A stretch of DNA of 64,000 bases from an uncultured Bacteroidota bacterium (GTDB lineage Bacteria > Bacteroidota > Bacteroidia > Bacteroidales > F082): NCBI GenBank assembly GCA_913055825.1, contig CAJXKB010000003.1, forward strand, positions 1-64,000. Direction: 5' to 3'. The notes below the pieces were generated by a model. The model was not told where the DNA came from. It ran no database searches and saw only the letters and a program-made list of their open reading frames with translations. The position numbers and the translations under genes were made by a program. Shown one piece after another: positions 27,663 through 51,629 of this stretch; within the stretch, counting starts at the first letter, position 1, and the number at the start of each line of letters is the position of its first letter.

Positions 27663-28892
27663 TTACTCCTGTAAACCAAAATGGTTTTTATAAAAATCGA
27701 GTATTTCACGATCAGCCTGATCATAAAAAGATTTTAGTTCTTTATTATTTATTTTGCCGGCTTGTTGCCATTTCTTTATCATGTTATCAGACTGATCAAA
27801 CAGTTGGTTTTCCAAAGGATGTAACACCTGTAGAATCCCTGTTTTATCAGCATTCAGTAAAGGATTTATATTCATATAATATTTACTGCTATTCCCCCAG
27901 TGATAGGTAAAACATCTCGCTTTTAAAGCAAGGGCAAAATGACATAACGGGGCATCTTTCAGCTTTTTATCATATTTCAAAACTTTTGGGAGGCTGTTGT
28001 CTTTGGTTAAAATAACAGGAACAGCTACCGAAGCCAACGGCCAACCCAACACCGTCCACATAGTAGTAAAAGCAGCATCCTGTCCCGGATTTACGCCTTC
28101 CACCACACAGGATGAAGCAGAGGTAATTCTGGGGACAAAATCTTTAAACCACACCATTTTAGGATGATTAGCCGGAATAGATACATAACTCCACAGGTTA
28201 GTACCGGTCAGCGAATGCTTCAGGTTACGGGCAGCATCCTGAAGAATACTTTTGGGGGTGAGTCCCCCATTGCGTACGGCATTTTCAAAAACAGGTTCTG
28301 TATTCAGATAGCGGATGTAACCGGCCCCCTCTCCATATGTTCCGGTGAACGAGTAATTGGTATGAATGATATACCCCTCAGGCGCTATTTTTGGGTTGTT
28401 GGCATCCAATTTAACAATTTTAAAGTTTCCCACTTCAAAATAAGCTGCACCACCCTGTGCATCTATCACACCAAAATTAGTTTCCAGGCCGGTGGGTTGG
28501 GGCAGTGTACGAAGAAATTGCTCAAATTCGTCCACTGTAGCACAATTTTGTAACGCTTGTTTCATTATCCTTCCTTCATGCCCGGTTTTTTTAATCGTGT
28601 CGTTGTTTAAGTTATAACTTACGGTATTCATAATGCCAAAACCTTTGCTGTTGTACCCTATCCAGATGCTGCGTCCTTTTTTGTCACTCGAGTTTACAAG
28701 GGCAACGTAAGGATATTTGCCATCATTGAATATCATAATTTTGTTGTTTAGCGCGTACGTGTCGCGGTTCTTCCATAACATGGGCCTTCCGTTTTTTGAA
28801 GCCTTAGCAGAAATAACAGCAGAAGTACAGGCAGAAATACTTCCAACACCCATCAAAATTGAAAATAACACGCTGAGAATAATTTTTTTCAT
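27663..28892 (-). CDS. C45/acyl-coenzyme A:6-APA acyltransferase-like Ntn hydrolase, exported
   Basis: Ntn-hydrolase of the linear amide C-N hydrolase/C45 type, which cleaves amide bonds of acyl amino acids or related compounds. The nucleophile is Cys22 in SISACTSAVIS, with NGRPMLWKNRDT downstream as in the family. Signal peptidase cleavage just before Cys22 would directly expose it as the N-terminal nucleophile; the sequence ISAC also satisfies a lipobox, and a lipidated Cys22 could not be catalytic, so the first reading is preferred. 409 aa. A paralogue with a type IX tail lies at 40838. The substrate is unknown; the peptidase surroundings favour an N-acyl or isopeptide amide. Confidence 0.85.
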   Translation of the reverse strand: MKKIILSVLFSILMGVGSISACTSAVISAKASKNGRPMLWKNRDTYALNNKIMIFNDGKYPYVALVNSSDKKGRSIWIGYNSKGFGIMNTVSYNLNNDTIKKTGHEGRIMKQALQNCATVDEFEQFLRTLPQPTGLETNFGVIDAQGGAAYFEVGNFKIVKLDANNPKIAPEGYIIHTNYSFTGTYGEGAGYIRYLNTEPVFENAVRNGGLTPKSILQDAARNLKHSLTGTNLWSYVSIPANHPKMVWFKDFVPRITSASSCVVEGVNPGQDAAFTTMWTVLGWPLASVAVPVILTKDNSLPKVLKYDKKLKDAPLCHFALALKARCFTYHWGNSSKYYMNINPLLNADKTGILQVLHPLENQLFDQSDNMIKKWQQAGKINNKELKSFYDQADREILDFYKNHFGLQE

Positions 28893-29211
28893 GGTTGTAT
28901 TTTTTTATAAATTCATCAGAAATATTCGTTTTGTATAATTTTTTGGGGGTAAATGTAACTAAAATTATTCCTGTAGTTATTCTTTTTCCCTGATTAAATG
29001 ACACAACCCCTGTTTTTTGGGTTCACAAATTAATACAAGAACCTGTTAAAAAAAATCAATTTTACAATAATTATTTAACCGCTTAATCAAATTGTTATTA
29101 AAACAACCCTGTTTACTTACAACCCCGATAATTATTTAAAATTTAGGATGTTATGTTGATTTTATAAAAAAAGCGCCGTAACTTTACAGCAAAAATTTTA
29201 AACCAAAAACC
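28893..29211. other. Divergent AT-rich intergenic region holding the promoter of the large peptidase operon
   Basis: This 319-bp gap lies between the C45 gene and the operon beginning at 29212. Apart from the promoter at 29156-29186 and a weak minus-strand TACATTTA (28950-28957), I see no ORF, RNA gene or repeat. Confidence 0.6.
29156..29186 (+). promoter_or_regulatory. Promoter of the eight-gene operon 29212-40705
   Basis: TTG (29156-29158), 20 nt, then TAACTTTA (29179-29186), one base off TAnnTTTG. The ATG of the first gene is 25 nt downstream. It is the only good promoter I see before 40.7 kb on this strand. Confidence 0.5.
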
Positions 29212-30813
29212 ATGAAACGATTATTAGTTTTCTTTTTAATGCTTCCTTTGGTAACGATGGCCTATCCCGGTCAAATCATACAATCTTTCAAAACCCCGGG
29301 AAATTACCCCGCCGGGCTTACTTTCGACGGGCAACATCTTTGGGTAAGTGATTTCCGTACGGATAAAATTTATGAACTTAATAAAAAAGGGGACATCATC
29401 AGGAGTATCCCGTCGCCGGCTTACTGGCCTATGGGGCTCACCTTCGACGGGAAATATCTCTGGTGTGCCGATGCCAAAGGACTTATCCCGCAAGGCGATG
29501 AATACCATGATGGCCGTATTTTTCAAATTGACCCCAAAGATGGTACAGTGGTAAAAACCCTGTTTGCCCCAACACCGGCGCCGCTGGGTTTGGCCTGGGA
29601 TGGCAAATACCTGTGGTGTGTGGATGATATTCACAACAAACTCATCCAATTCGATCCGCAAGACGGGACAACCATTAAGGAATATCCGTCACCTGACCTG
29701 CATCCACAGGGCGTAACTTTCGATGGAAAATACCTGTGGGTTCCCGACCGCATGCGGAATGAAATTTATATGATTGATCCTACAAGAGGTTCCGTAGTTC
29801 TGATTACCAAAGCACCGGGAGGCTCGGCTGCTGATATTACCTGGGACGGGAAACACCTTTGGAATGTAGATTTTGAAGACACTAAAATTTACGAATTAAA
29901 AGCACTTGACAGTCAGAAATATATCCGTTACAATCCATATAAAGCCAAATTAAGTTACTATTACAATGTGGATAACTTCGGACCTGGAAACATCAAACAA
30001 ATGGATGTATATTTTGCACTCCCCGAAAACAGGCCCAACCAGGAAATAACAAGCAAGTTTCAATATAAACCGGCCATTAAAGATATTGTTACCGATCAGT
30101 GGGGGCAAAAAACCGCCCATTTCCAGTTTAAAAACCTGAAACCCGGAGAACAAAGACAGCTTACCAATGATTTTTCAGTAACGACATGGGAAGTACGCTA
30201 TTTTATTGATCCTGACAAAGTGGGCGGCGAAAATGATATTCCGGAAGAGGTGAAAAGCAAATATCTCGTGGATAATTCTAAATACCAGATTCATCATCCG
30301 GTGATTCAAAATGCAGTGACAAAAGCCATTGGAAAAGATAAAAGCATGTATTGGAAAATGCGTGATATTTTCAATTACGTAATTAGCCACATGTATTATT
30401 TACGCACCGGAGGGTGGAACGAAGCTCCGACGGTACTGGCACGGGGAAACGGGTCCTGTTCTGAATATACTTTTGTGTTTATCTCCATGTGCCGCGCTGC
30501 CGGTATTCCTGCCCGTTATGTAGGATCAATTGTCAAAAGAGGTCATAAGCGTGCCATTGATGATGTTTTTCACCGCTGGATAGAAGTGTACTTGCCACAT
30601 TACGGATGGGTGCCGGTTGACCCGACGCACGGCGACCGTAAATTACCCCGCGACCAAGCCAATGCCATCGGCTACCTACCCAATCATGCATTAATAACCA
30701 CACAAAGCGGAGGCGGATCCACCACTATGGGATGGACCTACAACTTTAATGAGAAATATTCAACCGATGCCAAAGCCAATGTAGCGATTGATTACTACGG
30801 GGAATGGAATTAG
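29212..30813 (+). CDS. Exported beta-propeller protein with a transglutaminase-like cysteine peptidase domain
   Basis: A signal peptide (to about residue 18) precedes five repeats of about 45 residues (25-230) with the pattern PxGLTFDGKYLWxxD...IYxIDPxDG, an NHL/Kelch-like propeller. A linker beta domain (240-370) follows, then a transglutaminase-like domain with triad Cys416 (GNGSCSEY), His454 (DVFHRWIEV) and Asp470 (VPVDPTH). Bacterial members of this superfamily usually hydrolyse rather than crosslink amide bonds. The propeller probably binds substrate. First of eight closely spaced genes; the isoaspartyl dipeptidase follows 41 nt later. Isopeptide cleavage is a reasonable guess, not shown by sequence. 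Confidence 0.85.
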   Translation: MKRLLVFFLMLPLVTMAYPGQIIQSFKTPGNYPAGLTFDGQHLWVSDFRTDKIYELNKKGDIIRSIPSPAYWPMGLTFDGKYLWCADAKGLIPQGDEYHDGRIFQIDPKDGTVVKTLFAPTPAPLGLAWDGKYLWCVDDIHNKLIQFDPQDGTTIKEYPSPDLHPQGVTFDGKYLWVPDRMRNEIYMIDPTRGSVVLITKAPGGSAADITWDGKHLWNVDFEDTKIYELKALDSQKYIRYNPYKAKLSYYYNVDNFGPGNIKQMDVYFALPENRPNQEITSKFQYKPAIKDIVTDQWGQKTAHFQFKNLKPGEQRQLTNDFSVTTWEVRYFIDPDKVGGENDIPEEVKSKYLVDNSKYQIHHPVIQNAVTKAIGKDKSMYWKMRDIFNYVISHMYYLRTGGWNEAPTVLARGNGSCSEYTFVFISMCRAAGIPARYVGSIVKRGHKRAIDDVFHRWIEVYLPHYGWVPVDPTHGDRKLPRDQANAIGYLPNHALITTQSGGGSTTMGWTYNFNEKYSTDAKANVAIDYYGEWN

Positions 30814-30854
30814 GTTAAGGCTTGTTACTGTTTTTTGTTTTAATAAGAATTAGG

Positions 30855-32018
30855 ATGATACTACTTAAAAATTGTGAAGTTTTTGCTCCTGAACCGGTGG
30901 GTAAAAAAGATATTCTGCTGGGTGGTGGGATTATTTTAGCTATTGAAAACGAAATTTCGTCTTCTGAAGTTACCCGTTTTGGGGGAGAAATTATTCAAGC
31001 CGGGGGCCTCCGTGCAGTTCCGGGCTTAATTGATGGCCATGTTCACATAGCCGGTTCGGGTGGAGAAGGAGGACCGGCCACCCGAACGCCTGAGTTGCAG
31101 CTGAGTCAAATGCTAAAAGGCGGAGTTACCACAGTAATCGGACTTTTGGGTACTGACGGCTTTACCAGGAACCTGGAAGCCGTTTTAATGAAGGTGAAAG
31201 GCTTGCGTGCCGAAGGTGTTTCAGCCTGGATGATGACAGGAGCTTATCAAATTCCCACGCCCACTTTACTGGGGGATGTGGGCCGCGATATATCTTTAAT
31301 TGAAGAAATAATAGGTGTGGGAGAAATTGCCCTATCCGACCACCGCTCTTCAGAACCTACACTTAATGAACTTATCAGACTGGCTGTTCATGCCCGTATC
31401 GGGGGGATGTTGGGCAACAAAGCCGGGATTGTTAACGTACATATGGGTGACAGGGAAAATCCGTTTCGTTTGATAAATGAGGCTGTAGCAACAACTGATC
31501 TTCATTTCACCCAATTTCTTCCCACCCATTGCAATCGCAACAAGCACATATTTAATGAAGCCAAAAAATATGGCATAAACGGATACATTGACCTGACCTC
31601 TTATCCGGGCACTCTTGGACGGAATAGTGTAAATGCAGCCGACGGAGTAATGGAATTGCTGGCTGCCGGAGTACCTTTGGAACACATTACTACCACTTCG
31701 GATGGTTGTGGCTCAATGCCTATTTTCGATGAAAACGGAAAATTTGTAAAAATGGGAATTGGTACGCCGGATGCTATTTATAACACCTTTAAAATACTGG
31801 TCAACAAGCACAAACTACCTTGGGAACAAGCTCTTAAGGTGGTATCAACCAATCCGGCTAACATTTACAAACTTCATGGCAAAGGAGTGCTACATCCCGG
31901 AAAGGATGCCGACATTATTTTGCTGGATGCCAACACTGAAATTCAATTTTTGTTGGCTAACGGAACTTTGATGGTTAAAAACGGCCATCCAATTAAAAAG
32001 GGAACCTTTGAAAACTAA
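30855..32018 (+). CDS. iadA: Isoaspartyl (beta-aspartyl) dipeptidase
   Basis: Cytoplasmic amidohydrolase that releases the C-terminal residue from beta-aspartyl dipeptides (isoAsp-X). The 387-aa protein lacks a signal peptide. It shows the metal pair His62/His64 in GLIDGHVHIAG, the loop GEGGPATRTPE, SDHRSSEP, VNVHMGD and the substrate segment TTSDGCGSMP with the catalytic Asp. The position of the carboxylated lysine of the E. coli enzyme (Lys162) is taken by Glu157 in GVGEIALSDHR, as in the Glu-bridged amidohydrolases. The ATG at 30855 has an AGG just upstream and is preferred over an in-frame ATG 11 codons before it. Within the operon it would finish peptides trimmed by the exported enzymes; a transporter is needed, perhaps the NhaC-type protein two genes on. 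Confidence 0.9.
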   Translation: MILLKNCEVFAPEPVGKKDILLGGGIILAIENEISSSEVTRFGGEIIQAGGLRAVPGLIDGHVHIAGSGGEGGPATRTPELQLSQMLKGGVTTVIGLLGTDGFTRNLEAVLMKVKGLRAEGVSAWMMTGAYQIPTPTLLGDVGRDISLIEEIIGVGEIALSDHRSSEPTLNELIRLAVHARIGGMLGNKAGIVNVHMGDRENPFRLINEAVATTDLHFTQFLPTHCNRNKHIFNEAKKYGINGYIDLTSYPGTLGRNSVNAADGVMELLAAGVPLEHITTTSDGCGSMPIFDENGKFVKMGIGTPDAIYNTFKILVNKHKLPWEQALKVVSTNPANIYKLHGKGVLHPGKDADIILLDANTEIQFLLANGTLMVKNGHPIKKGTFEN

Positions 32019-32040
32019 TTCTTTAAATAAACAATACACC

Positions 32041-33660
32041 ATGGCAAAACTTTACAAATCATTTCAGAAATCCCATTCCCGGCTATCCACAAACAATAAA
32101 ATATTTGTTGTGGGGATGGTACTATTTTTTATGATCATTGCAGTTTCCTGGAAAAATGCCGGACCTGTAAAACCGCCCGCTGAAACCAATGATTTCAGCA
32201 AATTGACCGCTTACAAACCCATGATGACCTATTTAACCGAACTAAGCAGCAGGTCAAAGCATGTTTCCATGACAATGATTGGAAAATCTGTTCAGGGACG
32301 TGACATCCCGGCTCTCTTTTTTACATCGGATAAAAAATTTGCTTCCCATCGCAGTCAAAAGCCGTTGGTACTGATTTTTTGCCAGCAGCATGGCAACGAG
32401 CCTTCCGGAAAAGAGGCTGCCCTGCTGGTGGCCCGTGATTTAATTACGGATAAAGCGGAGTTGCTGCAACATTTTGATTTGATTTTGATTCCCCAAGCCA
32501 ATCCGGACGGAGGCGAACTACTTCAAAGACGAAACGCCCATAACATGGATTTAAACCGAAACCATGTTGTGCTGAGTGAACCGGAAGCGCTGGCTCTTCA
32601 AACGTTGTTTCTGAAATGGAAACCGGACATAGTGCTGGATATTCACGAGTACAACAGCATTAAAAAAGAGTGGATTGATCATGGTTATATCAAAGCGGCC
32701 GATGAGATGCTCGGCGGGTTGACGAACCTGAACGCGGATCCGTCCCTAATCGAATTCAGCCGAAAAATATTTATCCCGGAAACCGGCAAATCTATTAAAA
32801 AACAAGGCTTTACTTTTCATCGTTATACGGTTGGAATGCCGTTTCCAGGTTCAAGACTCCGCCACAGCACTACGGCTATTAACGACGGGCGCCAGAGTAT
32901 GGGCATTTACAACACATTGGCTTTTATCATCGAAGGCCGGCGCTTCGCCGATCCAACGCAAAACCTGAAACACAGAACGTTGGGACAGCGGGCAGCTTTG
33001 TTGGCTTTTTTGCAAACGGTAAGCCATCATCAACAGCAAATTCTGCAACTGGTTTCCACTGCACAAAGCAAATTATTAACCGGCAACGATGAATACAACA
33101 AAATCTCGCGCCTGCAAATGGACTATTTTCCGGATCCATTGCACAAAACCTGTGCTTTTCCAGTATTTGATTTTTACAAATGGAAAACGGTGACCAAACC
33201 ATTAACTCATTATTATTCGTTAGTGGAAGTCAAAAAAAGTGTGGAAAAACCTATAGCTTACATTTTCCCAGCTTCGGAAACAAAATTAATCGCCCTGTTA
33301 AAAAGAAACAGAATAGAAATGTTTGCTTTAAAAAATGCACTGGATATTCAGGCCGAATTTTATCGCATCCAACATGTAACACCCGACCGGGAAGAAGACA
33401 AATCCCATAAAAATGTGGACGTTTATGAATGGGGCGAAAAAAGAAATTTCCCCAAAGGAAGTGTACTTGTATTTTTAAACCAGCGGGCTTCTAATTTAAT
33501 TCCGTTGCTGCTGGAACCGCAATCTAGTTATGGCATTGTGTCCAAAAGTGCTATGCATCAGTATTGTTTCACAGATTATTTGAAGATCGGCCATGAATAT
33601 CCGGTTGCACGTATTGTTCAGCCTGTGAACACAGGCAATCTTGAGAAACTACCGGAGTAA
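32041..33660 (+). CDS. M14-family zinc carboxypeptidase, membrane-anchored
   Basis: Metallocarboxypeptidase of 539 aa. One hydrophobic segment near the N-terminus (about 20-37, FVVGMVLFFMIIAVSW) serves as a signal anchor. The catalytic domain (about 50-330) has the zinc ligands His117 and Glu120 (HGNEPSG), His202 (LDIHEYN) and the carboxylate-binding NMDLNRNH with Arg173. The last 180 residues form an extra domain with no clear identity. M14 enzymes remove single C-terminal residues from peptides or process peptidoglycan and gamma-linked peptides. The gene starts 22 nt after iadA; the ATG 32041 was chosen over a TTG that overlaps iadA. Confidence 0.87.
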   Translation: MAKLYKSFQKSHSRLSTNNKIFVVGMVLFFMIIAVSWKNAGPVKPPAETNDFSKLTAYKPMMTYLTELSSRSKHVSMTMIGKSVQGRDIPALFFTSDKKFASHRSQKPLVLIFCQQHGNEPSGKEAALLVARDLITDKAELLQHFDLILIPQANPDGGELLQRRNAHNMDLNRNHVVLSEPEALALQTLFLKWKPDIVLDIHEYNSIKKEWIDHGYIKAADEMLGGLTNLNADPSLIEFSRKIFIPETGKSIKKQGFTFHRYTVGMPFPGSRLRHSTTAINDGRQSMGIYNTLAFIIEGRRFADPTQNLKHRTLGQRAALLAFLQTVSHHQQQILQLVSTAQSKLLTGNDEYNKISRLQMDYFPDPLHKTCAFPVFDFYKWKTVTKPLTHYYSLVEVKKSVEKPIAYIFPASETKLIALLKRNRIEMFALKNALDIQAEFYRIQHVTPDREEDKSHKNVDVYEWGEKRNFPKGSVLVFLNQRASNLIPLLLEPQSSYGIVSKSAMHQYCFTDYLKIGHEYPVARIVQPVNTGNLEKLPE

Positions 33661-33694
33661 AAGCAGTAATCCGCAACCTTTTTAAAAAGAAAAT

Positions 33695-35104
33695 ATGGAA
33701 AAAAAGAAACAAAAACCCACCTTTTTACAGTCGATTATTCCTTTGTTTGCTGTTGCTGTTTTCCTTGGCATAGGTTACGGTATTTATCATCTGAACGTGG
33801 AAATATTGCTGATTGCTGCCGCTGCCGTAGCTGCTTTCATTGGCCTGCGTTTGGGTTATTCCTATAAAGAAATGGAAAATGGTTTTATCAAAAGCATGAT
33901 GAAAGGTATGCCTGCCATGCTGATTGTTATTGTTGTAGGAACTATCATTGGCTCGTGGATTGCCTGCGGAACTATTCCCATGTTAATTTACTATGGGTTA
34001 AAAATTATTTCTCCTCAATATTTTCTGGTAACCGCTTCTTTGGTTTGCTCGATTATTTCAGTGGTTACCGGAACTTCATACGGAACAGTTGGAACCTTGG
34101 GGGTTGCATTTATGGGGATTGCACATGGTTTGGGGATTCCTTTGGGGCAGGCGGCAGGCGCCATCGTTGCGGGAGCTTATTTCGGAGACAAACTTTCACC
34201 CTTTTCGGATACTACAAATCTGGCACCCATTGCTGCCGGAAGTAACTTGTACGACCATATAAAGCATATGCTTTGGACTACTGCTCCGGCTTGGATATTA
34301 GGATTGGTTGTTTATTTTTTTCTTGGTTTTCACACACTTCATGCAGGAAATGTTTCACTCGTGAAAACCGAGATGATCATGCAAACTATCCAATCAAACT
34401 TTACCTTCAGTTGGTGGTTACTTTTACCTCCGGCAATCACCCTGTTTTCGGCTGTGTTTAAGAAACCCATTATCCCCAACATGTTACTTTCCTCACTTGT
34501 GGCCGTTATTTTTGCCATTGTTTTCCAACATACGAATCTTACCGCTTCCATAGCTACAATGGCAACTGGTTTCGCCGCACATACCGGACAGCCCATGGTT
34601 GACGAATTGCTTTCAAGAGGAGGAATGTCATCAATGATGCATGTTACCCTTATCGCTTTTGCTGCTTTTGCATTTGGAGGAATTTTACAAGTTACCGGGA
34701 TGCTGGATGTTATCCTTGAACGTTTACTAAAAGTTGCCCATACAAGGGGAAAACTAATTGTATCCTCAGTTTTTGCATCCATTGCAACAGCCTTTATGAC
34801 AGGAAGTTCCTATTTATCAATCCTTATTCCGGGAGAGTTATTTGCCCCTGCTTATAAAAAGCTCAATTTAGCGGCAAAGAACCTGTCGCGTACTACCGAA
34901 GACAGCGGTACCGTTATTGTTCCACTTGTTCCATGGAGTATTGCAGGTGTATTTATGGCAGGTACACTGGGGGTCGATACGATCGACTATGCCCCGTGGG
35001 CCATTATGTGTTATACCGGATTTATTTTCGCCATCATATATGGCTTTACCGGATTTGCTATTGCTCCGAGGATCAGGGAAGATGAAACCATTCAGGGAAG
35101 CTGA
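33695..35104 (+). CDS. NhaC-family Na+/H+ antiporter-like transporter
   Basis: Polytopic inner-membrane protein (469 aa, about 11-12 hydrophobic segments) of the NhaC family in the ion transporter superfamily. Seen: the conserved half-repeat pattern with VVTGTSYGTVGTLGVA and the related second-half segment TGSSYLSILIPGELFAP, plus FGDKLSPFSDTTNLAP, all signatures of NhaC/MleN proteins. Relatives exchange Na+/H+ or carry malate/lactate or amino acids, so the annotation as antiporter is only generic. It is the only obvious inner-membrane carrier inside the peptidase operon (34 nt after the M14 gene, 13 nt before the MEMO-like gene), which makes import of dipeptides or amino acids worth considering. 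Confidence 0.85.
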   Translation: MEKKKQKPTFLQSIIPLFAVAVFLGIGYGIYHLNVEILLIAAAAVAAFIGLRLGYSYKEMENGFIKSMMKGMPAMLIVIVVGTIIGSWIACGTIPMLIYYGLKIISPQYFLVTASLVCSIISVVTGTSYGTVGTLGVAFMGIAHGLGIPLGQAAGAIVAGAYFGDKLSPFSDTTNLAPIAAGSNLYDHIKHMLWTTAPAWILGLVVYFFLGFHTLHAGNVSLVKTEMIMQTIQSNFTFSWWLLLPPAITLFSAVFKKPIIPNMLLSSLVAVIFAIVFQHTNLTASIATMATGFAAHTGQPMVDELLSRGGMSSMMHVTLIAFAAFAFGGILQVTGMLDVILERLLKVAHTRGKLIVSSVFASIATAFMTGSSYLSILIPGELFAPAYKKLNLAAKNLSRTTEDSGTVIVPLVPWSIAGVFMAGTLGVDTIDYAPWAIMCYTGFIFAIIYGFTGFAIAPRIREDETIQGS

Positions 35105-35117
35105 TTGAAAATGAAAA

Positions 35118-36278
35118 ATGAAAATGAAAATGAAAAATTTAAAGATTTTTTTTCTGTATTTACCATTATTTATATTTACAATGATTCCATTTAAAAACAA
35201 TTTTGCACAAATCCCGATGAAACATGTTTTAAACCGGGTTACAATTCCCGCGCAGGGGGATTTGCGTGGTTTGGTGGACACCATAGGTTTTCCACACACG
35301 GCAAAACAGATGGATTTTATTGCTAATTTTTGCGAGCGGGTGGAAAAAGACAAAACACTCAACAACAGCAAAAAATATAATTTTTCGGAAAATACGCCAT
35401 TTATCTTTGGTATTTCTCCTCACGACGACTATACGCTTGCCGGCCGTACAGCCATACACATTCAACGCCATATCCATGCCAAAACAGTAATATTAATTGG
35501 TAATGCACATTGGTCGGAAACTTTCGGCATTCGCGATAAGTTAATTTTCGGGAATTTCAAATTTTGGCGTGGGCCTTACGGAAAGGTAAAAATTTCACCA
35601 TTGAGGAAAAAAATAATTGCCAATTTACCAAAGAGTGATTACATCATGAACAGAACGGTTATCGAAACCGAGCACTCTTTGGAAGCATTGGTCCCATTCC
35701 TGCAGTATTTTAACCGGGATGTGGAAATCGTTCCCATTCTTATTCCTTTTACCCATTGGGATAAAATGAACAGCCTGGCGGAAGATTTGGCAAACGTTAT
35801 CAAAAAAATCATTTTGGAAAAACATCTGAAGTTAGGAAAAGACCTGGCTGTTTTGGTTTCGTCCGACGGGATGCATTACGGTGATCATGCCTGGAGTTAT
35901 TACAATTATCACCCTTTCGGTACGGATGCCGCAGGCTACCAAAAAGCCATGGATTATGATTCTACGCTGGTCACCCGCTTTTTAACGGGGGAGATTACCC
36001 TGCAAAAAGACCATGCCCTGTATGATAGTCTCATTGACGAACAAGGCATCTCACATTATAAAGTGTCGTGGTGCGGCAGGTTCTCGGTAACATTTGCCGT
36101 AAATTTTATGACAAGACTGGTACAGGAAAACGAACACCGCTCCCTGACGGGATATTTCCTGCGCCACGGTTCGAGCCTCAACGATACATGGGTTCCCGTA
36201 CGGAAATTACATATGGGAATTACCGGCGATGTTAATTTGCACCATTTTGTAACCTATTTTTCCGTTGGATTTAAATAA
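35118..36278 (+). CDS. Exported MEMO-like (AmmeMemoRadiSam system B-type) protein
   Basis: MEMO-family protein (related to extradiol dioxygenases and LigB fold) with a signal peptide (to about residue 31, NNFAQ), so it acts outside the cytoplasm. The three metal-type ligands of MEMO are retained: His102 (ISPHDDY, normally SPHAGY), His131 (IGNAHW) and Cys319 (SWCGRF). Also present are ETEHSLEALVPFLQ and LVSSDGMHYG. The cytoplasmic partners (AMMECR1 and radical SAM proteins) of the usual three-gene set are missing here. Four ATGs within 20 nt (repeats of ATGAAA) make the start uncertain by a few codons. 386 aa, 13 nt after the transporter gene. The reaction is unknown. Confidence 0.82.
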   Translation: MKMKMKNLKIFFLYLPLFIFTMIPFKNNFAQIPMKHVLNRVTIPAQGDLRGLVDTIGFPHTAKQMDFIANFCERVEKDKTLNNSKKYNFSENTPFIFGISPHDDYTLAGRTAIHIQRHIHAKTVILIGNAHWSETFGIRDKLIFGNFKFWRGPYGKVKISPLRKKIIANLPKSDYIMNRTVIETEHSLEALVPFLQYFNRDVEIVPILIPFTHWDKMNSLAEDLANVIKKIILEKHLKLGKDLAVLVSSDGMHYGDHAWSYYNYHPFGTDAAGYQKAMDYDSTLVTRFLTGEITLQKDHALYDSLIDEQGISHYKVSWCGRFSVTFAVNFMTRLVQENEHRSLTGYFLRHGSSLNDTWVPVRKLHMGITGDVNLHHFVTYFSVGFK

Positions 36279-36291
36279 AAAATCTGGTATA

Positions 36292-37659
36292 ATGAAACTC
36301 TTTTACCATTTTGTTAAAGCTTTGTTTTCGGCTTTCATCGAAAATTTGTTGTCCGCTTCCCTTTTAAGGGTACTGTCCCTTTTGCTCCTGATGGCCTTTT
36401 CCGTTTCTGCCCGGGCACAGGTGGATGAGGTTGGATCGCACAGTCTGAAAATGAACATTAACGGTAGCATATTGAGAATTCCCTATTTTGCCGATTTTCA
36501 GCTGGACTCCTCAAATACTGCCATCAAAAAAATTGTGGTGGTGGTGCACGGAATGAACAGAAATGCCGGTGATTATTACCGCAACATGAAAGAAGCCGCA
36601 TCCATGAGTTCGCATTATACCGATTCGCTCATGGTCGTAGCGCCGCAGTTCCTTGAAGAAGAAGACCTTGATCCCAATTTTCTCGACAACAGCTACCTTT
36701 ATTGGTCCAGTGGATGGAAATCGGGTTCCAACTCAAAAAACAATTCGGGACATCCCCGCCCCGAACGCATTTCTTCCTATGCCGTAATGGACACGCTGAT
36801 GATGCGACTTGCCACTTTTCATCCAAATTTAAAGTTTATTATTTTGGCAGGCCATTCTGCCGGCGCACAGTTGGTAAACCGGTATTCGGCTGCCAGCCCT
36901 GTGACCGATATCCTTTGGAACAAATATGGAATTCATGTCCGGTTTATTGTGGCCAACCCGAGTTCGTACCTTTATCTTGATAATGAAAGGGCTATTGCCG
37001 GAACCGTAAACCAGTTCGCAGTTCCATCCACAACCTGTTCAACATACAATAATTGGCGTTACGGGCTGGACAAATTATATTCTTATCCCAATCAATTTGG
37101 TGCCGACTCTATACGTAACATGATGAAGCGCAGGGAGGTGGTTTATTTGCTTGGGGAACTGGATACGGACGAAACCTCTTCGTCGCTTGACCAGTCGTGC
37201 CAGGCCGAGTTACAGGGAAGTTACCGCCTGGAAAGAGGAACCATCTATTTTAATTATCTTAAACACTATTACGGTGAATCCATTACCAGCTTGCAGTACC
37301 GTGACACGGTCCCCGGGGCAGGGCACAACAACCGCGACATGTTTACCTCCTCCATAGGACGGTATTGGTTGTTTATGAGCGATCCGGCAGAAGGGCCGGC
37401 TTCCGTACTATTTCATACTAACAACAAATTGAAAGTTTATCCGAATCCGGCTAACGATTTTATCCACATTCAGTTGGATGATCATGTTAAGCCGACATAT
37501 TATTCCGTTTATAATGCCATGGGAACCATTCTGGTTAAACATCAGCTACTCAAAGAAAGACCATGTGTGCTCGACCTGAAAGATTTGAAGCCCGGGATGT
37601 ATCTGTTGGTGATCAAGACTAAACAGGAAACGATTAGAAAATGGTTTATTAAAAGATAA
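36292..37659 (+). CDS. T9SS-secreted alpha/beta hydrolase
   Basis: A 455-aa exported hydrolase. After a signal peptide (cleavage near ARAQ) the catalytic domain has VVVHGMNRNAGDYY (oxyanion strand), nucleophile Ser189 in LAGHSAGAQ, and a likely His in PGAGHNNRD; the acid could be the Asp in GELDTDET. The last about 75 residues form a type A T9SS sorting domain, KVYPNPANDFIHI...GMYLLVIKT...KWFIKR, so the enzyme is delivered to the cell surface or medium by the type IX system. It begins 13 nt after the MEMO-like gene. No exact family could be assigned; ester and amide substrates are both possible. Confidence 0.83.
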   Translation: MKLFYHFVKALFSAFIENLLSASLLRVLSLLLLMAFSVSARAQVDEVGSHSLKMNINGSILRIPYFADFQLDSSNTAIKKIVVVVHGMNRNAGDYYRNMKEAASMSSHYTDSLMVVAPQFLEEEDLDPNFLDNSYLYWSSGWKSGSNSKNNSGHPRPERISSYAVMDTLMMRLATFHPNLKFIILAGHSAGAQLVNRYSAASPVTDILWNKYGIHVRFIVANPSSYLYLDNERAIAGTVNQFAVPSTTCSTYNNWRYGLDKLYSYPNQFGADSIRNMMKRREVVYLLGELDTDETSSSLDQSCQAELQGSYRLERGTIYFNYLKHYYGESITSLQYRDTVPGAGHNNRDMFTSSIGRYWLFMSDPAEGPASVLFHTNNKLKVYPNPANDFIHIQLDDHVKPTYYSVYNAMGTILVKHQLLKERPCVLDLKDLKPGMYLLVIKTKQETIRKWFIKR

Positions 37660-37663
37660 AATC

Positions 37664-38806
37664 ATGAACAAATTCATACTTATTCTCTTTTTATTTCTGA
37701 ACATTTTTACAACTTCTATGGCGCAAAACAGAGTAAGGGCCAGGGTTCTGGGAATTGAGCCGGGTATTCTCACGCCTGGCAAATGGAATGCCATTACCGA
37801 TGTAAAAGGGGTTTCGGTAGGGCAGAAAACGCTTATTATAGGGGATTCTGTCCGCACGGGTGTTACGGTTATTTTGCCACACCAGGGAAACTTATTCCAA
37901 GAAAAGGTACCCGCTGCAGTTTTTGTTGGTAATGGTTTTGGCAAAGCAATCGGTACCACTCAAATAGAAGAACTCGGCAATATAGAAACCCCGATAGCAT
38001 TAACCAACACACTTAATGCCTTTCTCGTAGCCAATGCTTTAGTTGACTACACACTTTCAAACCCTGAAAATGCCCATGTTAGATCCATCAACCCTGTTGT
38101 TGGGGAAACCAATGATGGCTGGCTCAATGATATCCAATCGCGGGCGGTAAAAACTTCAGATGTTCTTGAAGCCATTAATTCGGCGACAACCGGACCGGTA
38201 CGGGAAGGATGTGTAGGCGCCGGTACCGGTACAATGTGTATGGGATTTAAAGGAGGTATAGGGACCTCATCGCGTGTGCTGCCAAAAGACAAAACCGGAT
38301 ATACGGTGGGGGTTCTTGTTCAAACAAATTTTGGCGGAATACTGACAATTAACGGTGCACCCGTAGGTAAAGAATTGAACAATTATTATATGGCTAACGA
38401 CGTACCTTATGTTGTTGATGGTTCCTGCATGATTATAATTGCAACCGATGCCCCTTTATCTGTTAGGAACTTAAAACGACTGGCCAAACGCTCCTATTTA
38501 GCCTTAGGGCGTGTCGGATCTTTTTCATCAAACGGGAGCGGCGATTACATTATTGCATTTAGCACCGACGAAAGAGTTCAGGTTCCTTACCGTTCAGGGG
38601 AACAAGAAAGAATGATCCCTGATGTGCCTAATGATAAAATGTCGCCACTCTTTCTCGCAGTTGTTGAATCAACTGAAGAAGCTATTTACAATTCACTTTT
38701 TATGGCTACCGACATGAAAGGCCAACACGGTAGAGTAGTAAAAGCACTTCCCATTGCAAAAACACTTCGGATATTGGATAAACATAAAGCTCGCATAAAG
38801 AAATAA
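37664..38806 (+). CDS. Exported P1-family aminopeptidase (DmpA/BapA-like)
   Basis: Self-processing Ntn-type aminopeptidase of family P1 (S58); members cleave N-terminal residues, including D-amino acid amides (DmpA) and beta-amino acids (BapA). Signal peptide to about residue 21. Family motifs: GVTVILPHQG, NGFGKAIGTTQIEELG, NPVVGETNDGWLND and REGCVGAGTGT. The precursor cleaves itself between Gly and Ser in VDGS (Gly253/Ser254), making Ser254 the N-terminal nucleophile of the small subunit. It starts 4 nt after the preceding gene. The choice between alpha, beta and D substrates cannot be made from sequence. Confidence 0.9.
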   Translation: MNKFILILFLFLNIFTTSMAQNRVRARVLGIEPGILTPGKWNAITDVKGVSVGQKTLIIGDSVRTGVTVILPHQGNLFQEKVPAAVFVGNGFGKAIGTTQIEELGNIETPIALTNTLNAFLVANALVDYTLSNPENAHVRSINPVVGETNDGWLNDIQSRAVKTSDVLEAINSATTGPVREGCVGAGTGTMCMGFKGGIGTSSRVLPKDKTGYTVGVLVQTNFGGILTINGAPVGKELNNYYMANDVPYVVDGSCMIIIATDAPLSVRNLKRLAKRSYLALGRVGSFSSNGSGDYIIAFSTDERVQVPYRSGEQERMIPDVPNDKMSPLFLAVVESTEEAIYNSLFMATDMKGQHGRVVKALPIAKTLRILDKHKARIKK

Positions 38807-38821
38807 CCAATTTATTTGACA

Positions 38822-40705
38822 ATGAATAATTTTAACTTTAAAAAATTTGGCTTTCGATCAGCATTTGTTTTTCTTCTTGTTCTCATCCCTTTTTTGGGTA
38901 ACAGCCAAAATAGTTTACCGGTTAGTAAAAACTTCTCGAAAGCGCTTCAAGCAAAAACAAGGACAACAATTGGAATACCGGGGCCGGGATACTGGCAAAA
39001 CCGCATTTCGTACGATATTACAGCAGAAGTTATTCCTTCGGAAAAAAAACTTATTGGCAGCGAGAAAATTAGTTTTGTGAATAATAGCCCCGACACCCTA
39101 TACCAAATAGTATTTCATCTTTTTCAAAATTTATATAAAAAAGGAAGCCAAAGAGACAGCCCTGTTAATCCTGACGATATCGGTTCAGGCGTCAAGATTA
39201 GAGTCTTAGAAATTGATAATCGGCTTATTACGAATTTTAAGATTATAGGCACCCTATTAATTGCAGAACTAAAAACACCCGTTTTCCCTTCCGAAGCAAA
39301 GAATATAAACGTAAAGTGGAGTTTTTCAATTCCTTCTAAAACCAATATGCGTATGGGAGCTAAAGATGACTCATCTTTCTTTTTGGGGCAATGGTATCCG
39401 AAAGTTGCTGTTTACGACGACATAAAAGGATGGGACATGAATATCCACACCGGCGGCCAGGAATTTTATTATGATATTGGAAATTATAAATACACTGTGA
39501 AAGTCCCCGACGGCTATATGGTTTGGGGTTCGGGATTACTTAAAAACGGCAAAGAAGTACTGCAAAATAACATCTACAAAAAGTTTTTGGAGGCACATCA
39601 AAGCGATGCCATTATTCCCATCATAAGTTTAGACGATTTCAAAAAAAGCAAACCCTTAACTAAAAGCAACATCTGGAAATTTGAAGCCGATCAGGTATCA
39701 GATGTCGCCTTCGGAATAAGCAATCACTTTCTTTGGGATGCATCTTCTTTGGAAATATCAGGCAATAAAATCTTTGTAGAAGCAGTTTATCCACCTAAGG
39801 CAAAAGATTTTACCGAAGTTGTAAAATTGGCGAAGAAAACACTTGTTTATTTATCAACCGATTTACCGGGAGTCCCATTTCCATTTCCGGCGGTAACTGT
39901 TTTTAACGGTACAAACGGAAGCAGTGGTATGGAGTACCCCATGATTGAAAACGATCCTTCAGCTGATAATCATGGCAGGACCGTTGATGTAACCGCCCAC
40001 GAAATCACACACAACTATTTTCCCTTTTACGTTTTAACCAACGAAACCGAACATGCATGGATGGATGAAGCTTTTGCATCAATGCTTCCCTATAAATATC
40101 AATTGAAAAATGAACCTTCGTTAAACCGCTTAACGCGATTCGCAAAGAGCATGAGCAAAAAAGCGAATACAGATTGGAATATTGCCGCCATGACCAATTC
40201 GACCATGCTAAAGGGCAGAATATCATACTTCAATAATTACATGAAGCCGGCTGTAGCATTATACGTCCTAAAAGATATGCTGGGAGAAAAATTGTTCAGG
40301 CAGTGCCTTATTACATACATCAATACCTGGAAAAGAAAACATCCCACACCGACAGATTTCTTTAATATAATTAATCAAACCGCCCATCAAAACCTAAACT
40401 GGTTTTGGAAGTCCTGGTTTTTCGAAAACGGTTACCCCGATTTAAGTATCAACCATATTGCAATAAATAATAATTCATATGAAATAACAATTAAGAAATT
40501 GGGAGATCTTCCGGTTCCCCTGAACCTGATTGTAACTTTCAACGACCATTCAATACAAAGAATTCATTATTCAGCAGCCATTTGGAGAGATAAAAGCACC
40601 AAAATAGTTACAATTAAAACTAACAAAAAAATTGATAAACTAAAACTCGGTAATGACTATATACCGGACATAAATTTAGATAATAATATATTGTATATCA
40701 AATAA
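38822..40705 (+). CDS. Exported M1-family zinc aminopeptidase
   Basis: Metallo-aminopeptidase of 627 aa with signal peptide (to about residue 29, LGNSQ). The M1 fold starts with the beta-saddle domain (SYDITAEV). The exopeptidase motif reads SSGMEYP (a GxMEN variant) and the zinc motif is His393-Glu394-x-x-His397-18 residues-Glu416 (HEITHNYF...WMDEAF). Shorter than canonical PepN, matching the Bacteroidota M1 group that lacks a C-terminal helical domain. Last gene of the tightly packed operon (15 nt after the P1 gene). It would release N-terminal residues from peptides in the periplasm. Confidence 0.9.
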   Translation: MNNFNFKKFGFRSAFVFLLVLIPFLGNSQNSLPVSKNFSKALQAKTRTTIGIPGPGYWQNRISYDITAEVIPSEKKLIGSEKISFVNNSPDTLYQIVFHLFQNLYKKGSQRDSPVNPDDIGSGVKIRVLEIDNRLITNFKIIGTLLIAELKTPVFPSEAKNINVKWSFSIPSKTNMRMGAKDDSSFFLGQWYPKVAVYDDIKGWDMNIHTGGQEFYYDIGNYKYTVKVPDGYMVWGSGLLKNGKEVLQNNIYKKFLEAHQSDAIIPIISLDDFKKSKPLTKSNIWKFEADQVSDVAFGISNHFLWDASSLEISGNKIFVEAVYPPKAKDFTEVVKLAKKTLVYLSTDLPGVPFPFPAVTVFNGTNGSSGMEYPMIENDPSADNHGRTVDVTAHEITHNYFPFYVLTNETEHAWMDEAFASMLPYKYQLKNEPSLNRLTRFAKSMSKKANTDWNIAAMTNSTMLKGRISYFNNYMKPAVALYVLKDMLGEKLFRQCLITYINTWKRKHPTPTDFFNIINQTAHQNLNWFWKSWFFENGYPDLSINHIAINNNSYEITIKKLGDLPVPLNLIVTFNDHSIQRIHYSAAIWRDKSTKIVTIKTNKKIDKLKLGNDYIPDINLDNNILYIK

Positions 40706-40837: not shown

Positions 40838-42346
40838 ATGAAAGCTTTACGAATTGAGATATTTATTTTTTTCTTTCTGGCATCCTTGACGGCCACAAGC
40901 CAGTTGTCCGGTAACTTTTCGCATGACGAATGTACCATTGGCGTGGCTTCGGGAAATGCTACCAGCGATGGCCGCCCCATGGTATGGAAAACCCGCGATT
41001 ATAGTTCGGCACCCAACAACGAAGTAAAATACAACACCGCTTATCGTTACAAATTCATCAGTGTATCCAATGCCGGAAGCAGCACTTATTCCTGGATGGG
41101 ATTAAACGAACACGGTTTTGCCATTGTAAATACCTTATCTTCCGATTTGGAGGCAGGTTCTTCAGGCCCCTCCAATGGCGCATTTATGCGCGATGTTCTG
41201 GGAAACTGTAAAACTGTGGAAGCGTTTCGTCATTATCTGGATTCGACCAACCAAAGCGGGCGCAAGACCCATGCAGATTTCGGGGTAATTGATTCAACCG
41301 GTGAGGCGGCAATATTTGAAACTTCCGGCAACAACTATTGGGAATTTAATGCAGATGATTCCCCGCATGGCTATGTGATACGAACCAATTTTTCCATGAC
41401 GGGGGGCGGCTCTACCGGTATTGAAAGGTATAACCGTTCGTCAGACCTGATAGCCCAATTTTATGCAGGTGATTCCCTAAATCTCAAAAGTATCCTACGC
41501 TACCAAATGCGCGATTTCTCTGATTTCGACAGTAATCCGGTTTCGGTTCCCTTTCCACATCAATGGTCGCCGGGTATTCCTAAAGGATACATCAATACCT
41601 CCAAAAGTATATGCCGCAACTCTTCGGTTTCGGCTGCTGTTATTCATGGGGTTCTGCCAACGGAGCAAGCAGGTTTATCCACCATGTGGACTATTTTAGG
41701 GCAACCGGCAAGCAGCGTGGCACTACCGTATTGGCCCGTCGTGAATACTCCGGTAGAAGCCGACGGTGAATCCACTTCTCCTTTGTGTGATATTGCCCGT
41801 CAAATCAGATCGACACTGTTTGATTTTGTTTCAGATGATGAATACATCAACTCCTATAAACTTCGCGATGGCAATGGTGCTGGTCTGTGGTCGTGTACTT
41901 TTCCATTTGAAGATAGTGTTTTGACAACCACGAAAACTTTTATGGACAGTATGCGTACTTTAACTCTTTTACCAAAGAATGTGATATCGCTAAAAGAAAA
42001 AAGCCTGGCACAAAGGGCTTTGTCACGTTTAAAGTATTTTCGCCAGTCGCTTATCTCCGGTGTTCCGGAAAACAAAACCGGCTTAATAGTAATCTATCCA
42101 AACCCGGTCCAATCGGGTTTGTTAAACATTCGTTACACCTTAAAGAAAAATGCATTTGTAAAAATTGAATTCTGTTCGGCACAGGGACAGGTGCTGATGG
42201 TATTGGCCAATGAAAAACAAAGTCCCGGTCCCCATGTTTATCAAATTCACAGAGAGGTTTTTCGAGACAATGGTGTTTATTTGTTAATCTTTCAGCAAGA
42301 TAACAGCATAAAAACAGTTAAAATTATTGTCCGGCAAGGTAAATAA
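40838..42346 (+). CDS. T9SS-tagged C45/acyltransferase-like Ntn hydrolase
   Basis: Paralogue of the C45 protein at 27663-28892. Shared elements include the predicted nucleophile Cys32 in DECTIGVASGNATSDGRPMVWKTRD (compare ACTSAVIS..NGRPMLWKNRD) and the motif TMWTILGQPASSVALP. Unlike the paralogue, about nine residues separate the likely signal cleavage site (TATSQ) from Cys32, so propeptide removal is needed. A C-terminal type A T9SS sorting domain (about 425-502, IYPNPVQSGLLNI...GVYLLIFQQ) sends it to the cell surface. It lies 132 nt after the M1 gene, in the same direction. Confidence 0.85.
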   Translation: MKALRIEIFIFFFLASLTATSQLSGNFSHDECTIGVASGNATSDGRPMVWKTRDYSSAPNNEVKYNTAYRYKFISVSNAGSSTYSWMGLNEHGFAIVNTLSSDLEAGSSGPSNGAFMRDVLGNCKTVEAFRHYLDSTNQSGRKTHADFGVIDSTGEAAIFETSGNNYWEFNADDSPHGYVIRTNFSMTGGGSTGIERYNRSSDLIAQFYAGDSLNLKSILRYQMRDFSDFDSNPVSVPFPHQWSPGIPKGYINTSKSICRNSSVSAAVIHGVLPTEQAGLSTMWTILGQPASSVALPYWPVVNTPVEADGESTSPLCDIARQIRSTLFDFVSDDEYINSYKLRDGNGAGLWSCTFPFEDSVLTTTKTFMDSMRTLTLLPKNVISLKEKSLAQRALSRLKYFRQSLISGVPENKTGLIVIYPNPVQSGLLNIRYTLKKNAFVKIEFCSAQGQVLMVLANEKQSPGPHVYQIHREVFRDNGVYLLIFQQDNSIKTVKIIVRQGK

Positions 42347-42407: not shown

Positions 42408-43187
42408 TCATTTCTGTCTCCAGGGTTTTAGTTTAGATGGATCAATCGCACGGATCAATGCCCTGGCCAGCACCCGATTAGAATCGATAAGTGGAACGCC
42501 ACCAAAGTTGTTGGTTTTATAAGCCAATGACAATTCGGTGCACCCCAACACAATAACTTCCACTTTTTCATAGATTAAAGATCGGGTCGCATTTTCAAGC
42601 TGTTGCCTTGATTTAAAGGAAATGCTTCCCGTAACAGATTTAATTCCATAATCAGGATGATAAATGGCCTGGTGAATTTTCTTCTGAACAGCTTCTGTAG
42701 GATAAACAACTTTAAGTCCATAATCTTCCAATAATTGATATTGTCCCGCTTTTACAGTACCCGTTGTTGCCAACACCCCAAGCCTATTCACACCATTGAA
42801 CTCCAGCTTTATCACTTTGGCCACTTCTTCAATCATATTCAGCAGTTTAAGTTTCATTTTGCTTTTATTGAGTTCATCAATAACAACATTAAAAATAGCG
42901 GGTGCGTGAGCCGAATTACAGGCTATTCCGGCAACAGTAACCCCTAACAACCCTAATTTTTTCAACATCGAAAATATAGCATGAGCCGGATTTTCGGAAA
43001 CGGAACCCAAAATGAATTCAGTTCGGTCTGCAATGTTTTGTGGCACTGATAATAAAACTTGTGGCAGATGATCCTGATCTTTTATTGCAATAGTCTCGTT
43101 GATAATCATCTCCGATAGATTTACTCCAGCCATTGGGCCCATGCCACCTATGATACCAATGAGTTTTTTGTTTGCTTCGTATTCCAT
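42408..43187 (-). CDS. Aspartate/glutamate racemase-family protein (cytoplasmic)
   Basis: PLP-independent racemase of the aspartate racemase type (259 aa, no signal peptide). The N-terminal IGIIGGMGPMA and the two catalytic cysteines, Cys90 (IACNSAH) and Cys216 (LGCTELS), are in place, so an active two-base enzyme is expected. Its substrate among Asp, Glu and other amino acids is not fixed by the motifs. It stands alone on the minus strand, between the C45 paralogue and SusC, in a region rich in isoaspartyl and peptide hydrolases. D-Asp produced by protein ageing would be a fitting substrate (inference). Confidence 0.88.
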   Translation of the reverse strand: MEYEANKKLIGIIGGMGPMAGVNLSEMIINETIAIKDQDHLPQVLLSVPQNIADRTEFILGSVSENPAHAIFSMLKKLGLLGVTVAGIACNSAHAPAIFNVVIDELNKSKMKLKLLNMIEEVAKVIKLEFNGVNRLGVLATTGTVKAGQYQLLEDYGLKVVYPTEAVQKKIHQAIYHPDYGIKSVTGSISFKSRQQLENATRSLIYEKVEVIVLGCTELSLAYKTNNFGGVPLIDSNRVLARALIRAIDPSKLKPWRQK

Positions 43188-51400: not shown

Positions 51401-51629
51401 GGATGATGTCCGGTATCCGGCCAGGCTGGCATCACGAATAAGCTATCTGGCATCTGTCGTAGCGGTTTCTGATTTTCCCCCCACCGATCAGGATATTGCA
51501 GTTTATCAATTGTTACACGCTAAGTTGATTAATTATAATGAAGAACTAAAGAAATTGATACAGGGTAAATTTGCCGCCTTCAGAAAGGAACTGTCAGCAA
51601 ATCATATCGGTCCGATCATAACAGATTAG
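48414..51629 (+). CDS. Exported Asp-box (BNR/sortilin-like) beta-propeller protein
   Basis: A 1071-aa exported protein with a signal peptide (to about residue 32). It carries at least eleven Asp-box motifs of the form SxDGGxxW (KTVDGGLNW, KSTDGGDTW, MTTDGGKTW, RTTNGGQSW, LSRDNGKTW and others) between about 75 and 730, forming one or two VPS10/sortilin-like propellers. The last 300 residues contain a domain with a beta-sandwich outline and a coiled region (SLLLKKLYQDMNQLAGDI). Databases often label such proteins glycosyl hydrolase, but no catalytic residues can be identified; they are common next to peptide-degrading genes. A binding or scaffold role is equally possible. It has its own transcription unit after the susD terminator. 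Confidence 0.8.
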   Translation: MKNLIRQFSKISIILFSILLFIFAGAYKTQAQKIDKQQLKQLKFRFIGPVGNRTISVAGIPGDPSTYYVGAASGGIFKTVDGGLNWKSLFNDKPVSSVGALAIAPSNHQVIYAGTGESFVRSNNSLGDGVWKSTDGGDTWKHIGLENTGRISRIVVNPKNQDIVWVAALGNAFVPQKERGVFMTTDGGKTWNHVLFVNENTGTSDIVIDPANPSILFAGMWQLELKPWKRISGGPGSGIFKSTDGGLTWKKLTGNGLPTLPVGKIGLAMTPSNPERVYALIETGDGVPIDGKKTNSGELWRSDNLGKSWKLINSNRDLGGRQAYFTRCAASTDNPNEIYFLSSVFSKSIDGGKTITTGPRGTLPSWDHHGMWIDPLNGNRMIVVGDAGLAISQNRGKSWYRVQLPVAQLYHVTTDNDIPYHVLANCQDFTSARGPSRVTGTPFIPNASWHDVGGGESGFATPDPVNPDIIWSGSSGRGPLGGIVVRYNEKTKQYRQVEVWPEYTHGHPANDVKYRFQWAFPLIISPHDHNTIYVGSQYLHRTTNGGQSWEKVSPDLTLNDKSKQGFSGGLTPDNIGVEYADVIYAIAESPVKKGVIWCGTNDGLVQLSRDNGKTWKNVTKNIPHLPELGVIRNICASKWNAGKAYISVDLHLLGNFEPYVYKTSNYGHTWKKITNGISFGNLNYVRNIQEDPVRPGLLYLGTENTLYYSFDDGENWQPLMTNLPHVPMYWIDIQKHFNDLVVGTYGRGIWILDDITPLQQLTRKITSSDAWLFSPRPAYRFRPVSRSMQFHPDPASGQNPPYGASVNYWLSKKTDSIKIDIKDSVGNVVRTIKTKGKPGINRIWWNLRGKPTEKIIMCTEPKYADWYPMGKLRIRKSTVKPFSILEPPGTYTVQMITGNKTFSQKLIILKDPHSSGSLSDIKKQSLLLKKLYQDMNQLAGDINKIERIRRQLYDMKAMLSTQKGKKDIVDQIGAIDTTFLAVEGKMIRLKVTGTGQDDVRYPARLASRISYLASVVAVSDFPPTDQDIAVYQLLHAKLINYNEELKKLIQGKFAAFRKELSANHIGPIITD

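Follow-up and report, generated by a model that had tools for sequence, protein, structure and literature searches.

The window analysed here comprises 64,000 nucleotides (positions 1 to 64,000 of contig CAJXKB010000003.1, assembly GCA_913055825.1) from an uncultured Bacteroidota bacterium of the order Bacteroidales. Eight co-directional genes on its plus strand (29212-40705), for which an original prediction made from the letters alone had proposed a joint role in cleaving peptides and amides, were compared with genes and neighbourhoods in other genomes. Three of them, which encode a beta-aspartyl (isoaspartyl) dipeptidase (IadA), an M14 metallocarboxypeptidase and an NhaC-family carrier, form a core that recurs in another Bacteroidales genome and is akin to a module of cyanophycin utilization loci, but no cyanophycinase was found in the window genome. 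The eight genes are best read as a cyanophycinase-less relative of such a locus, and it is somewhat probable that they constitute an accessory operon for scavenging beta-aspartyl peptides or polymers.

The IadA-M14-NhaC core

The predicted cytosolic IadA (30855-32018) scored 445 bits against the equivalog model TIGR01975 (cut-off, 331.25), matched isoaspartyl dipeptidases in the PDB with E values of about 1e-93 and, by eye, has no hydrophobic N-terminal stretch. The adjacent gene (32041-33660; PF00246) encodes an M14 enzyme, probably exported, with a catalytic domain and a C-terminal extension, and is followed by the gene for the inner-membrane carrier (33695-35104), whose product scored 516 bits against the equivalog TIGR00931 (cut-off, 370). 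With an Arg/Orn antiporter (ArcD-type) model the carrier scored 339 bits, under the cut-off of 650, and carriers from two cyanophycin loci scored 371 and 336 bits, under the cut-off of 500, with the model of the YfcC basic amino acid antiporter. The NhaC protein is probably a carrier of dipeptides or amino acids.

The best 80 of the 103 loci obtained by scanning named genomes with an IadA alignment included 63 with a strong IadA match. In locus L078, from the Bacteroidales metagenome-assembled genome GMC4, the IadA, M14 and NhaC genes are present in the same order and on the same strand, with 62, 56 and 77% identity to the window proteins. By contrast, no NhaC match above 44% identity was found in 39 relatives of the window genome. 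All seven loci from Acidobacteria/Holophagaceae had the arrangement cyanophycinase-M14-IadA-YfcC-type carrier on one strand, and in two from Holophagaceae (L124 and L130) a C45 hydrolase was located between IadA and the YfcC carrier. The cyanophycinase of L124 scored 167 bits against TIGR02069 (cut-off, 126.6). Downstream of the same locus, a minus-strand gene (L124:15668-17017) was observed to match the MslH lasso-peptide epimerase model with 113 bits, below the cut-off of 700.

Of 392 other genomes of the order, 28 were found to encode this M14 family. Neighbourhoods were analysed for 29 M14 loci, comprising 27 of the 28 matched genomes and two loci of genome G023; a fragment at a contig end (G352) was left out. 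IadA, cyanophycinase or YfcC was present in 13 of the 29 neighbourhoods (12 of 28 without L056, which was first taken for its IadA) and, with the IaaA-type beta-aspartyl peptidase added, in 16. The IaaA-type gene was 90 to 97 bp from the M14 gene in two loci (L167 and L169) and 4.5 kb away in a third (L170). No marker gene was detected in 39 control neighbourhoods, namely, those of the MEMO-like (n = 27), transglutaminase-like (n = 7), NhaC (n = 2) and S58 (n = 3) genes, which were derived partly from different genomes, some without any IadA. Fisher values of 2e-6 and 5e-8 for M14 versus control loci are too small, as related genomes are not independent. Three of the fuller loci (L056, L164 and L168) contained a cyanophycinase, IadA, an M28-like peptidase, M14 and a menC/racemase-like gene, with YfcC in L164 and L168 and SusC in L056 and L164; the M28 and menC labels were assigned partly by eye, those of L168 being checked. 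These analyses indicated that the M14 family is a frequent companion of cyanophycin/isoaspartyl genes and that, by gene neighbourhood, M14 and IadA are parts of one module for isoaspartyl/cyanophycin metabolism that recurs between genomes.

A menC/N-acylamino-acid-racemase-like gene of the enolase superfamily was also observed beside M14 in L056, L164, L165, L168 and L173 (TIGR01928, 367 bits for L168; others labelled by eye), which suggests an epimerisation step at these cyanophycin loci.

In a 38-row tree of M14 sequences, in which L101, L119 and L130 were represented by their last 520 residues only, the window, L078 and L159 sequences formed one clade (support, 97/92). The M14 gene of L159 is about 170 bp from a cyanophycinase gene (TIGR02069, 141 bits). 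Residues H117, E120, R163, N172, R173, H202 and E298 of the window M14 were invariant in 28 aligned sequences and presumably have zinc-binding or catalytic roles. The predicted structure (pLDDT, 91.9) matched carboxypeptidases over residues 42 to 335, with Z scores of up to 29, and contained an extra C-terminal part. An NDGRQS motif was common to many of the aligned sequences; no specificity of the S1' pocket was derived from it.

According to PMC10206079, the cyanophycin utilization locus consists of cyanophycinases, iadA and a transporter (Ben Hania et al. 2017, cited therein). The same paper reports M14-annotated isoaspartyl dipeptidases in Proteobacteria and says that, for Firmicutes and Bacteroidota with cyanophycin genes, such dipeptidase(s) 'remain undiscovered'. 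The operon resembles such a locus in that its cluster combines IadA with a carrier and exported enzymes, and its M14 family stands in many of the loci of this kind found here. It differs in that no cyanophycinase was found in the genome, in a carrier of NhaC rather than YfcC type and in the addition of PahZ1-like, S58, M1, transglutaminase-like and MEMO-like genes, with no SusCD inside. Like the cyanophycin dipeptide hydrolase of M14 type (Sharon et al. 2023, cited in the same paper), the family includes M14 metallopeptidases encoded beside cyanophycin genes; unlike it, the window protein has an export-type N-terminal segment, a domain of carboxypeptidase A/B type and a C-terminal extension. 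The dipeptide hydrolase was absent among the structure matches listed for the window M14, which does not exclude kinship.

The PahZ1-like hydrolase and the proposed pathway

The original prediction described the sixth gene (36292-37659) as a hydrolase exported by the type IX secretion system (T9SS). No Pfam family was detected in its product apart from the Por_Secre_tail sorting domain. Its best PDB matches were to poly(aspartic acid) hydrolase-1 (PahZ1), namely, 6ve6 (E value of 1.5e-7, in two pieces) and 9o7u (1.2e-6), followed by the PHB-depolymerase-like LpqC (0.003), so that on sequence comparison this alpha/beta hydrolase resembles PahZ1. A GHSAG motif, an Asp and a His were aligned with three relatives and are taken by us to form a Ser/Asp/His triad. 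The sorting domain and a nearer sister family in Burkholderiales set the window protein apart from the PahZ1 enzymes of Pedobacter KP-2 and Sphingomonas KT-1. When one Burkholderiales relative was tested, PahZ1 was again the best match (E value of 1e-10). A two-sequence structure model of the hydrolase (pLDDT, 34.7) was useless for fold comparison.

A PahZ1 gene was found together with IadA and M14 in L184, from another family of the same order, where DcuC-IadA-(porin-like)-M14-(porin-like)-PahZ1 are encoded on one strand. The DcuC protein scored 394 bits, IadA scored 358 bits (above the cut-off) and PahZ1 matched 9o7u with an E value of 5e-63; the porin labels were assigned by eye. The M14 proteins of L184 and the window are 26% identical. 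Among loci L034 to L187, no PahZ1-like gene was found besides that of L184.

The seventh gene (37664-38806) encodes an exported S58/P1 aminopeptidase of the DmpA/BapA family, with 397.8 bits against PF03576 over residues 42 to 358 and PDB matches to D-aminopeptidase and BapA. It differs from BapA and DmpA in being exported and in sharing an operon with IadA, and its best PDB match was a hypothetical D-aminopeptidase (2drh). According to PMC4456602, the Pedobacter PahZ1 cleaves internally between beta-Asp units and accepts tripeptides but not dipeptides; its authors compare PahZ1 with the P1 enzymes BapA and DmpA, which take off N-terminal beta-amino acids.

Three of the enzyme families in the operon, PahZ1-like, S58 and IadA, are known for cleavage of beta-amides and may act similarly here. 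In the scheme that we favour, the T9SS-exported PahZ1-like hydrolase would cut beta-linked Asp chains or isoaspartyl-containing peptides outside the cell, the exported M14 enzyme would trim the carboxyl end, and the exported S58 and M1 enzymes would trim the amino end. The resulting dipeptides or amino acids would be imported by the NhaC-family carrier, and cytosolic IadA would split beta-Asp-X dipeptides. The sequence of exported hydrolysis, uptake through NhaC and cytosolic isoaspartyl cleavage put forward in the original prediction fits this evidence and is made more specific by the M14/IadA module and the PahZ1-like hydrolase; the transglutaminase-like and MEMO-like genes showed no isoaspartyl link. 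The genes outside the core were probably added in the lineage of the window genome. A narrower version, which we offer only tentatively, is that the operon serves utilization of natural poly- or iso-beta-aspartate by a surface PahZ1-like enzyme, an exported S58/P1 enzyme, cytosolic IadA and a new, beta-aspartyl-specialised family of exported M14 enzymes, with L184 as a second, simpler form.

Arrangement and surroundings of the probable operon

The eight-gene set was confirmed as real. With ATG starts for IadA (30855), M14 (32041), the T9SS hydrolase (36292) and M1 (38822), the gaps are 41, 22, 34, 13, 13, 4 and 15 nt, which bears out the predicted spacing of 4 to 41 nt; from this arrangement the genes are probably co-transcribed. 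The predicted gene families were also recovered, except that the propeller-like N-terminal part of the first protein, an exported transglutaminase-like protein (29212-30813; PF01841, 80.6 bits), matched propeller families only under their curated cut-offs. The fifth gene (35118-36278) encodes an exported MEMO-like protein, and the eighth (38822-40705) encodes an exported M1 aminopeptidase (PF01433, 56.6 bits). Six proteins are predicted to be exported from a strongly hydrophobic N-terminal stretch seen by hydropathy; that of M14 has no obvious cleavage site.

The single good promoter of the original prediction fared less well. A relaxed version of the Bacteroidota promoter pattern matched the plus strand between 29000 and 40900 at 29156-29187 (TTG-N21-TAACTTTA) and, inside a gene, at 36947; the strict pattern had no match in this region, and the -7 element alone matched at five intragenic places. 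A sigma-70 scan gave 44 sites versus 39.6 in shuffles, which is no clear excess. The match at 29156-29187 is accordingly a weak promoter candidate. GC content is even across the window (0.376 to 0.435) and gives no sign for or against a recent arrival.

Relatives of the window genome (39 other genomes, of which 11 are congeners; 40 with the window's own) were searched for the operon genes, the whole-genome searches for IadA and NhaC covering all 39. The transglutaminase-like gene was the sole one with close homologues in congeners (63 to 68% identity in 5 of 11); for the other seven, no homologue above 41% identity was found in any of the 11. Full-length IadA was present in 4 of 39 relatives and no congener, M14 was also absent from congeners (best match in a relative, 36%), and the best NhaC match among congeners was 41%. 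MEMO-like proteins had 35 to 39% identity in 10 of 39, M1 matches had 26 to 42% among the matches listed, S58 was present in two genomes of the set, and matches to the T9SS hydrolase were confined to its C-terminal part. In the neighbourhoods of the MEMO, transglutaminase, IadA, NhaC and M14 genes of this set, operon genes were never together save in G023, where IadA and M14 lie on opposite strands with about 3 kb between them. A conserved eight-gene operon was rejected, the full set being absent around MEMO (27 loci, 11 from relatives and 16 from 15 of the 46 genomes with a match elsewhere in the order), the transglutaminase (7), NhaC (2, best matches only), S58 (3) and IadA (63). No viral contigs with IadA were found.

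The window MEMO-like protein exceeded the cut-offs of PF01875 (74.5 versus 27 bits) and of TIGR04336, a model for the AmmeMemoRadiSam system (87 versus 26 bits). Its residues H102, H131 and C319, presumably metal ligands, were invariant in 12 sequences, in columns aligned with MEMO1. Exported-type MEMO proteins (E value of 1e-40) are widespread, being found in 46 of 392 other order genomes. The sole one of the window type was in G235 (60% identity; the rest, 32 to 42%), where other operon genes were absent in 18 kb. Those of the relatives are mostly of another kind, 35 to 39% identical and in other contexts, and the window genome itself has a second-kind MEMO on contig C14. A role for MEMO in the isoaspartyl theme found no support, since IadA, cyanophycinase and YfcC were found at none of the 27 MEMO loci. 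A literature search on bacterial MEMO listed nothing on the role of exported ones. Two further observations concern MEMO. A large BNR/propeller-type exported protein is encoded at 48414-51629 of the window (plus strand), and in G235 (L071) a gene with 73% identity to it is situated 93 bp away from the exported MEMO gene. The other kind of exported MEMO, which is the common one in the genus, is accompanied by an HD-domain-like gene at a median distance of 16 nt in nine loci (L036 to L044; family assigned by eye), and the two possibly form a functional pair.

Two C45-type Ntn hydrolase genes flank the operon. One starts 132 nt past its end (40838-42346, plus strand), carries a T9SS tail (PF03417 and TIGR04183 above cut-off, NF040521 below) and is possibly a further member; the other is divergent beside the operon start (27663-28892, minus strand; PF03417, 24.6 versus 23.2 bits) and is a possible associate. 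An amino acid racemase of aspartate/cysteate type (42408-43187) and a SusCD pair beginning 2.9 kb downstream follow, and S9 and C26 peptidases are also present in the flanks. An exported IaaA-type beta-aspartyl peptidase, lipoprotein-like by eye (54917-55948, minus strand; PF01112, 393 bits; PRK10226, 352 bits, under the cut-off of 567), is encoded 14 kb downstream. The window thus encodes isoaspartyl enzymes of two families, and this one is a possible functional associate of the operon.

Competing explanations and significance

Several observations weigh against a beta-aspartyl scavenging operon related to cyanophycin loci. No cyanophycinase was found in the window genome (3.1 Mb in 145 contigs, 96.9% complete), the only S51 match being PepE (288 bits; 22 of the 126.6 bits set for the cyanophycinase model); the operon is, therefore, not to be called a cyanophycin utilization locus, though it may function as such a locus does. 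Unstudied Burkholderiales hydrolases (33 to 36% identity in the five records listed out of 19) are closer to the T9SS hydrolase than PahZ1 is, the one homologue examined for its annotated surroundings (Variovorax) had no isoaspartyl genes beside it, and the PahZ1 of L184 is only 22% identical to the window protein. PahZ1-like genes were present in 1 of 29 M14 loci, and 13 of these loci had no marker gene, three of them on stretches of less than 12 kb. The proposed reading accounts for neither the transglutaminase-like nor the MEMO-like gene, and no isoaspartyl neighbours were found for these two or for S58, the last seen in three loci. Gene order, the comparison named in the original prediction as its refutation test, gave a divided answer, with the eight-gene order found in no other neighbourhood examined and IadA-M14-NhaC kept in L078.

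General scavenging of peptides or necromass, by a chance gathering of broad exported peptidases and one amino-acid carrier, is somewhat unlikely. It would account for IadA because isoaspartyl residues block ordinary peptidases, and it agrees with the C45 hydrolases, S9 and C26 peptidases and SusCD of the flanks, with the breadth of the M1 and S58 families, which fit such a role too, and with the lack of isoaspartyl neighbours at the transglutaminase, MEMO and S58 loci (only three for S58). Specificity of the core, at the least, is suggested by the recurrent link of IadA and M14 in Bacteroidota and Acidobacteriota and by the L078 block. A more improbable alternative is the reduced cyanophycin locus of a cross-feeder, which would import beta-Asp-Arg released by the cyanophycinase of others and split it by M14 or IadA. 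M14 and IadA are indeed often neighbours of cyanophycinase, the window M14 is closest to those of L078 and of L159, where a cyanophycinase gene is nearby, and the carrier shows kinship with the Arg/Orn antiporter model. Against this, a link to cyanophycin is unproven, as the 96.9% complete genome yielded no cyanophycinase; there would be no need for a PahZ1-like endo-hydrolase; and IadA, which PMC10206079 describes as promiscuous, is no pointer to Arg. It is very improbable that at least two abutting, unrelated transcription units are present, with the MEMO-S58-M1 half unconnected with IadA-M14-NhaC; the conserved core does lie only in the first half and the second relaxed promoter match is at 36947, though intragenic, yet the gaps are 4 to 41 nt throughout, and the PahZ1-like gene sits in the second half, with a PahZ1 gene found together with those of IadA and M14 in L184.

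The statement in the original prediction that no operon of this composition had been described is uncontradicted for the whole set in the literature searched; the core, in turn, resembles the described cyanophycin utilization locus. No description of a PahZ1-IadA-M14 operon was found by title and abstract, in a search that left subscription journals mostly outside. If the beta-aspartyl scavenging operon is real, it would provide a natural nutrient-operon setting for PahZ1, an enzyme known for its action on synthetic poly(aspartate), and an uncharacterised family of exported M14 enzymes would be tied to cyanophycin/isoaspartyl breakdown in Bacteroidota and Acidobacteriota. This would bear on the gap concerning isoaspartyl dipeptidases of Firmicutes and Bacteroidota that is printed in PMC10206079, and exported M14 enzymes would be assigned to the isoaspartyl metabolism of Bacteroidota.

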